NCBI GenBank assembly: GCA_020809705.1
Contig: CP085827.1
Location: 1,550,001-1,614,000 of the forward strand
Length of the DNA stretch: 64,000 nucleotides
Source: Calonectria ilicicola
Lineage: Eukaryota; Ascomycota; Sordariomycetes; Hypocreales; Nectriaceae
Reading direction: 5' to 3'
Shown here: positions 7,569 to 8,365 of the stretch, piece by piece
How positions within the stretch are numbered: the first letter of the stretch is position 1
Layout of the letters: each line of letters starts with the position of its first letter
The notes under the pieces: generated by a model
Told to the model about the DNA's origin: nothing
Database searches by the model: none
What the model saw: the letters and a program-made list of their open reading frames with translations, nothing else
Program-made: the position numbers and the translations under genes

Positions 7569-7573
7569 AAAAA
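7569..7573 (-). terminator. Pol III T-run terminator of tRNA-Phe
   Basis: Five Ts on the minus strand, 8 bases past the tRNA 3' end. This is a normal RNA polymerase III stop and supports transcription of the interrupted tRNA gene. Confidence 0.7.
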
Positions 7574-7581
7574 GAATTGAT

Positions 7582-7709
7582 TGCGGTTTGTGTGGATCGA
7601 ACACACGACCTTCAGATCTTCAGTCTGACGCTCTCTAGAGAGATGGTTAGACTGGATGTGCTGGAGTTTTTCCAAGTTTGACAACTTACCCCAACTGAGC
7701 TAAACCCGC
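7582..7709 (-). tRNA. tRNA-Phe(GAA) interrupted in the D-loop by a 55-nt insert
   Basis: Read on the minus strand, the gene starts GCGGGTTTAGCTCAGTTGGG and ends with a T-arm (GTGTG TTCGATC CACAC), acceptor strand AAACCGC and discriminator A. The anticodon loop is CTGAAGA, giving anticodon GAA with no intron at 37/38. D-stem GCTC/GAGC and anticodon stem TCAGA/TCTGA both pair. One acceptor mismatch (G5-A68) is present. Between AGTTGGG and AGAGCG lies a 55-nt insert (7635-7689). Removing it leaves a textbook D-loop, AGTTGGGAGAGC. A box and B box are both intact, and a T5 terminator follows. Without removal of the insert the D-arm could not fold normally. This copy is therefore either a pseudogene or needs an unusual processing event. 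Confidence 0.85.
7635..7689 (-). other. Spliceosomal-intron-like insert inside tRNA-Phe D-loop
   Basis: The insert begins GTAAGTTGTC, contains AGTCTAACCAT (CTAAC branch motif) and ends TCTCTCTAG. These are the three signals of fungal pre-mRNA introns, and 55 nt is a normal intron length in this window. Excision exactly at GT and AG restores the canonical D-loop. The boundary can shift by one base because G flanks both sides. Whether it is spliced is unknown. Confidence 0.7.
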
Positions 7710-8282: not shown

Positions 8283-8365
8283 GCCCGGTTAGCTCAATCG
8301 GTAGAGCGTGAGACTCTTACGAGTACGCGATCTCAAGGTTGCGGGTTCGACCCCCGCATCGGGCT
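8283..8365 (+). tRNA. tRNA-Lys(CUU) with a 10-nt canonical intron
   Basis: Acceptor GCCCGGT pairs with ATCGGGC (8358-8364), with T as discriminator base at 8365. D-arm AGCTCAATCGGTAGAGC and T-arm GCGGG TTCGACC CCCGC are intact. The anticodon CTT is at 8316-8318 and the anticodon stem is TGAGA/TCTCA. The 10 bases CGAGTACGCG (8320-8329) sit between positions 37 and 38, the normal place for eukaryotic tRNA introns. The intron's GAGT can pair with ACTC of the anticodon loop. A T5 terminator follows at 8405-8409. Confidence 0.93.

Follow-up and report, generated by a model that had tools for sequence, protein, structure and literature searches.

In Calonectria ilicicola, two tRNA-Phe(GAA) genes and all three tRNA-Val(UAC) genes found in the genome carry inserts of 54 to 55 nt in the D loop that very likely (with a probability of roughly 0.86) represent GT-AG, U2-type spliceosomal introns within working Pol III tRNA genes. 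Spliceosomal removal of these inserts is a strong inference from their sequence, and it suggests that the messenger splicing machinery also helps to make tRNAs. Textbooks assign the splicing of nuclear tRNAs to a protein endonuclease that cuts at position 37/38 and is separate from the spliceosome.

An interrupted tRNA-Phe gene

The window, a stretch of 64,000 nt from contig CP085827.1, contains on its reverse strand an interrupted tRNA-Phe(GAA) gene of 128 nt including A73 (7582..7709; all features of the gene lie on this strand). Its first exon (tRNA nt 1-20, 7690..7709) has the same sequence in all 12 tRNA-Phe genes of the genome and holds an intact A box, TAGCTCAGTTGG (nt 8-19, 7691..7702), that ends upstream of the insert. 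The insert itself, 55 nt at 7635..7689 and of the spliceosomal type to judge by its signals, lies between G20 and A21 (nt 20/21): it opens with the 5' splice site GTAAGT (7684..7689), carries a branch-point-like CTAAC (7646..7650) with 12 nt from the putative branch A to the insert end, and closes with the 3' splice site AG, here as TAG (7635..7636). The second exon (nt 21-73, 7582..7634) is without a 37/38 intron and includes the anticodon GAA (7619..7621) and the B box core GTTCGATCC (7594..7602), and beyond it stands a T5 run (7569..7573) that is likely the Pol III terminator. Given that a complete A box precedes the insert and that the B box and the T5 run follow it, the Pol III promoter and terminator of this gene look intact, with an A box to B box distance of 88 nt, as against 53 nt in one measured tRNA-Phe gene with a 37/38 intron.

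The initial annotation had described a complete tRNA-Phe(GAA) with a 55-nt GTAAGT...CTAAC...TAG insert in its D loop, and the sequence bears this out. Its further claim, that precise GT-AG removal restores the tRNA, agrees with ARAGORN, which calls the spliced 73 nt as tRNA-Phe(gaa) and mis-calls the unspliced gene as a tRNA-Pro with a 53-nt intron. Over the 72 nt compared, moreover, the spliced exons match without difference those of all ten tRNA-Phe genes that carry a 37/38 intron. The gene escapes both ARAGORN, run in its bacterial default mode, and Rfam at gathering scores; they return only the adjoining tRNA at 8283-8365, which appears by eye to have a short anticodon-loop insert, is left unnamed by ARAGORN in bacterial mode and was taken as tRNA-Lys in the initial annotation. 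Of six proteins encoded in the window and scanned for domains, one carries HET and one Fungal_trans together with Zn_clus, which suggests a filamentous ascomycete.

The combination of signals is rare. Counted on both strands of the whole window, just one of 127,890 stretches of 55 nt starts with GTAAGT or GTATGT, ends in AG and has a CTRAY that stops 8-14 nt short of the end, and that one is the tRNA-Phe insert; likewise, when each of the five inserts is shuffled by mononucleotide, 0 of 20,000 shuffles reproduce the combination. A chimeric assembly, named at the outset as the finding's possible undoing, is unlikely at this site, since the same architecture recurs in four more genes at other loci.

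The tRNA-Phe family

A genome-wide search (69.93 Mb, 12 contigs) with a pattern of the tRNA-Phe 5' half, allowing up to 3 mismatches, returned 12 exact places and four with three mismatches, against eight in the backward control, and all 12 exact places are tRNA-Phe genes. Ten have a 19-20-nt intron at 37/38 and no D-loop insert, and their exons are all identical. The remaining two, namely the window gene (PheA) and a gene at C3:1959226-1959352 (PheB), have the D-loop insert and lack the 37/38 intron. The comparison of tRNA-Phe genes with and without the insert, proposed in the initial annotation, thus places the insert in 2 of 12 and adds what that annotation had not foreseen: the genes with the insert are exactly the two from which the 37/38 intron is absent (2/2, versus 0/10 of the others).

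PheB lies 0.4 Mb from the window gene, and its insert, at the same site, is a 54-nt GTATGT...TACTAAC...CAG; the spacing from A box to B box in the two genes is 87-88 nt. Their exons are identical at 71 of 73 positions and differ only at nt 49 and 65, where G49-C65 has become A49-U65, a compensatory change of a T-stem pair. The insert cores, on the other hand, are identical in only 19 of 40 alignment columns (versus 71/73 exon positions, Fisher p 6e-10) and are not detectably alike, as 68 of 1000 shuffles match as well. The earlier suggestion of a dead copy that marks a recent intron gain is unlikely, because the exons have been kept at 71 of 73 positions while the insert cores are no longer detectably related. 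Gene conversion could account for part of the exon identity. Segmental duplication of the tRNA-Phe genes is not supported: the 150-nt flanks of the 12 genes are no more alike than shuffles, except where clustered neighbour genes overlap the compared stretch. A cluster at G000:C3:1959226-1959716 comprises three tRNA-Phe genes with 5' ends each 182 bp apart and with spacers that are not alike, and only one of the three has the D-loop insert.

The tRNA-Val(UAC) family

A second isotype is also affected, which goes beyond the initial annotation. Three identical places reached with a broader pattern, in which a 5' splice site comes after an A box, led to three tRNA-Val(UAC) genes (L097 on C1, L098 on C5 and L099 on C11), all on contigs other than that of the window. 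In each, 55 nt of the form GTAAGT...CTAAC/CTAAT...AG separate T20a from A21, and a 7-nt intron follows at 37/38; the A and B boxes are 96 nt apart. With both introns removed as placed, ARAGORN calls tRNA-Val(tac) in 3/3, and in none of the three unspliced genes does it call a tRNA at all. Removal of the D-loop insert alone gives Val(tac) for L098 and L099, but for L097 ARAGORN then chooses another 7-nt intron and calls tRNA-Lys(ttt). The 37/38 intron of L097 was placed as in its paralogues, and the mature form of L097 then equals that of L099. Exons within the trio are identical at 72-73 of 73 positions and the inserts at 40-48 of 55 (p 0.02, 2e-5 and 9e-7).

Searched against the genome, the complete L097 gene with its insert gave three matches, all with the insert (3/3), and no tRNA-Val(UAC) gene without it. 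A gene lacking the insert would still have the 36-nt 3' end and the 17 nt before the small intron in common with L097, and for this reason would probably have been seen; comparably, the ordinary tRNA-Phe genes were detected by the corresponding search. It is likely that all tRNA-Val(UAC) of this fungus has to pass through two unrelated splicing machines, the spliceosome and the tRNA endonuclease with its ligase, acting on one and the same Pol III transcript. The codon GUA could also be read by an inosine-34 tRNA-Val, so that tRNA-Val(UAC) could be dispensable to the cell.

The initial annotation had left a choice between removal of the insert by the spliceosome and a dead gene copy. That these are dead or dying tRNA copies in which intron-like DNA has landed and from which it is not removed might be argued from the ten ordinary tRNA-Phe genes, which make two copies freely losable, and from the failure of a default tRNA finder to detect the window gene. 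Such an explanation must contend with exons that stay intact and constrained while the inserts diverge, with the compensatory T-stem pair of PheB, and with the presence of the insert in every tRNA-Val(UAC) gene found, and is very unlikely. Of the two branches, spliceosomal removal is favoured, and the dead copy is disfavoured both by exon conservation and by the three of three tRNA-Val(UAC) genes.

Signals of the inserts and extent of the search

The five inserts measure 55, 54, 55, 55 and 55 nt and share one organization. Their 5' splice sites are GTAAGT in four and GTATGT in one, in keeping with the extended GT-AG form; the branch motif is CTAAC in four and CTAAT in one, with 11-13 nt from the putative branch A to the end; and all end in AG, as TAG, CAG and TAG in three and as AAG in two of the tRNA-Val genes. 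Insertion is directly 5' of A21 in every case, away from the nuclear 37/38 position, and on direct reading each tRNA gene permits a single GT-AG placement. TTTT is absent from all five inserts, a T5-T6 run follows each of the five genes, and after removal every gene has a complete cloverleaf, A and B boxes and a terminator. AAG is a weaker acceptor than YAG. Against the spliceosomal reading stand the AAG ends of two tRNA-Val inserts, the CTAAT of one and the longer spacing between A and B boxes; the two tRNA-Phe genes could, besides, be dispensable next to ten others.

Between isotypes, the inserts resemble each other no more than shuffled sequences do (154 to 905 of 1000 shuffles match as well), and the shared insertion site is the only hint of a common origin. 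The window insert had also been suggested to be an introner-like element, of a mobile kind that would spread intron copies and hit tRNA genes by chance. The same site in five genes and the near-constant length would suit such elements, but the genome search for further copies that the initial annotation had suggested, run with either tRNA-Phe insert, returns that insert alone (1/1 match each), and the search with the whole L097 gene finds only the three tRNA-Val paralogues, whose inserts form the only related set. Because the DNA search passes over very frequent words, the copy-number negative is not absolute; even so, spread by mobile elements is extremely unlikely.

An ectopic tRNA intron could instead be cut out by the tRNA splicing endonuclease, the route supposed for introns in the D-arm of tRNAs from the red alga Cyanidioschyzon merolae. 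Atypical introns in the D-, anticodon and T-arms of C. merolae tRNAs are described in part of PMC9602550, and one permuted tRNA of that alga has its junction at 20/21 according to part of PMC3978253. Moreover, a relaxed 5-bp central helix can be drawn with 4/5 pairs in PheA and 5/5 in PheB, together with 2/3 exon-side pairs, and a test for bulge-helix-bulge (BHB) structure is of low sensitivity, given that the ordinary 37/38 intron of one tRNA-Phe gene itself scores only 3/4 central pairs and 1/3 on each side. The relaxed helices nevertheless have next to no intron-side stem (0/3 and 1/3); the fixed BHB test (4-bp centre, 3-nt bulges) finds at best 4-5 of 8 pairs, with 1/4 central, across all five junctions, a score that 895-1800 of 2000 shuffled inserts reach as well; and an endonuclease would leave the GTAWGT, the CTAAC/T and the AG of every insert unexplained. 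Removal by the endonuclease is accordingly highly improbable.

Patterns that join an A box to a 5' splice site gave 27, 49, 38 and 99 places in overlapping lists, with 34, 106, 94 and 162 in the backward controls. Downstream sequence was checked for 27/27, 49/49, 38/38 and 98/99 of them, partly by script and for 20 places by eye, and the two tRNA-Phe and three tRNA-Val genes are the only tRNAs among them. Six look-alikes flagged by a loose T-arm test (L012, L086, L089, L129, L158 and L159) were rejected as tRNA candidates. L129 (C7:3534497-3534677) has a D-arm-like TAGCCTAGTGGTTGTAAG and no convincing tRNA body, and is perhaps a tRNA-derived repeat or relic. The pattern scan covered inserts directly behind an A box, with the A-box forms and 5' splice sites of its patterns, and the number of affected isotypes is a lower bound. 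A genome search with RF00005 scored 63 of 2542 candidates and is for that reason no census of the tRNA genes. Two scans of viral contigs for the junctions gave no match.

U6 and U3 genes as an in-genome comparison

As a background for introns in this genome, the motif GTRNGT...CTRAY...YAG occurs 102 times in 251 kb of the loci sampled, versus 30-52 times in five Markov shuffles and 63 times in the reversed sequence. This sample is biased, many of its loci having been picked for a GTRNGT, and U6 introns were therefore used as the comparison. U6 is a Pol III transcript. The genome search for U6 gave two matches (47 of 4404 first-look candidates scored; C1:6580508-6580615 and C3:884181-884349), both with introns, of 55 and 58 nt, that begin with GTAAGT, have CACTAAC/TACTAAC at 12/11 nt and end in CAG; by hand count they lie at about 1486-1540 of L036 and about 1555-1612 of L037. 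The tRNA inserts agree with them in the kind of 5' splice site, in the branch point and in its spacing. On direct reading the two introns occupy different places, and each gene is uninterrupted at the site of the other's intron, which makes it almost certain that the spliceosome of this fungus splices a Pol III transcript. Both U6 introns contain a B-box-like GGTTCGANTCC, and the U6 intron may carry part of the Pol III promoter. The three U3 snoRNA genes (L094, L095 and L096) apparently have a spliceosomal intron as well: by eye, CTAAC...AG directly precedes their conserved GAGAATC core, and L094 and L096 show a GTATGT farther upstream.

Proposed mechanism and origin

In the simplest reading, the five tRNA transcripts would take the same route as the U6 intron. 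Pol III would use the intact A and B boxes and read through the intron to the T-run, and the spliceosome would then release the insert as a lariat, so that nt 21 follows directly on nt 20. In tRNA-Val the D-loop intron would be removed by the spliceosome and the 7-nt 37/38 intron by the tRNA endonuclease, perhaps in that order. The claim that a pre-mRNA-type intron had entered a Pol III gene is in this respect supported, as the insert differs from 37/38 introns in both kind and place.

The inserts may be old and may have arisen when introns were reverse-spliced into tRNA or transferred to it. For tRNA-Phe, one possible route would start with reverse splicing into a mature tRNA from which the endonuclease had already removed its intron, with reverse transcription and gene conversion as later steps; this would give gain of the D-loop intron and loss of the 37/38 intron at once. 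The tRNA-Val genes retain their 37/38 intron, and such loss is thus not obligatory. Derivation of the tRNA-Phe D-loop intron from the 37/38 intron is not convincingly supported. Parts of the insert at 7635-7689 of the window, and of the insert in L040, resemble the ordinary tRNA-Phe 37/38 intron, and 0/1000 and 13/1000 shuffles are as good a match to that intron, and 49 and 20/1000 to the whole gene. Against real genomic segments the match is unconvincing, as 167 and 106 of 3000 controls for A and 254 and 32 of 3000 for B (gapped and ungapped, respectively) do as well.

Relation to known systems and implications

The closest parallels are the U6 and U3 introns of fungi, likewise short GT-AG introns with CTAAC in small structured RNAs, of which U6 is made by Pol III. 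Here, however, the host RNA is a tRNA, and its promoter boxes lie in the exons, in contrast to the B-box-like motif within the U6 intron. With canonical nuclear 37/38 introns, present in ten of the 12 tRNA-Phe genes and in the tRNA-Val(UAC) genes, the D-loop inserts share that they are intervening sequences in tRNA genes: they differ in position, are longer, and bear spliceosomal signals in place of an anticodon-loop structure. The ectopic introns of C. merolae, cryptophyte nucleomorphs and archaea also occupy non-canonical places, including the D-arm, and those in the D- and T-arms of C. merolae are supposed in part of PMC9602550 to leave before the anticodon intron. Ectopic introns are described in part of PMC3978253 as having a bulge-helix-bulge or a similar motif, but many of those in the Guillardia theta nucleomorph have no defined one; the D-loop inserts, unlike these ectopic introns, have splice sites and branch points and no BHB beyond that of shuffles. 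The disrupted tRNA genes reported in the parts consulted of these two papers (PMC3978253, PMC9602550) are BHB-type cases from algae and archaea, and among the matches listed, which give part of its text, tRNAscan-SE 2.0 (PMC8450103) treats non-canonical introns for archaea only. A spliceosomal intron in a nuclear tRNA gene is not reported among the matches listed, in a search outside which lie preprints and most subscription papers.

For gene finding, the implications are practical. Unspliced, the five genes defeat ARAGORN, which misses the three tRNA-Val and mis-calls the two tRNA-Phe; covariance-based finders may fail likewise on D-loop-interrupted genes, and D-loop introns may conceal isoacceptors that are recorded as absent from fungal genomes. 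More broadly, confirmation would show that the spliceosome can act on a tRNA transcript made by Pol III, and would break the division of labour between endonuclease and spliceosome. If the reading is true, tRNA joins U6 and U3 among the small structured RNAs matured by the spliceosome, and the supply of tRNA in this fungus would be coupled to mRNA splicing. Finally, both the entry of introns into non-coding genes by reverse splicing into RNA and the response of tRNA supply to splicing become testable.
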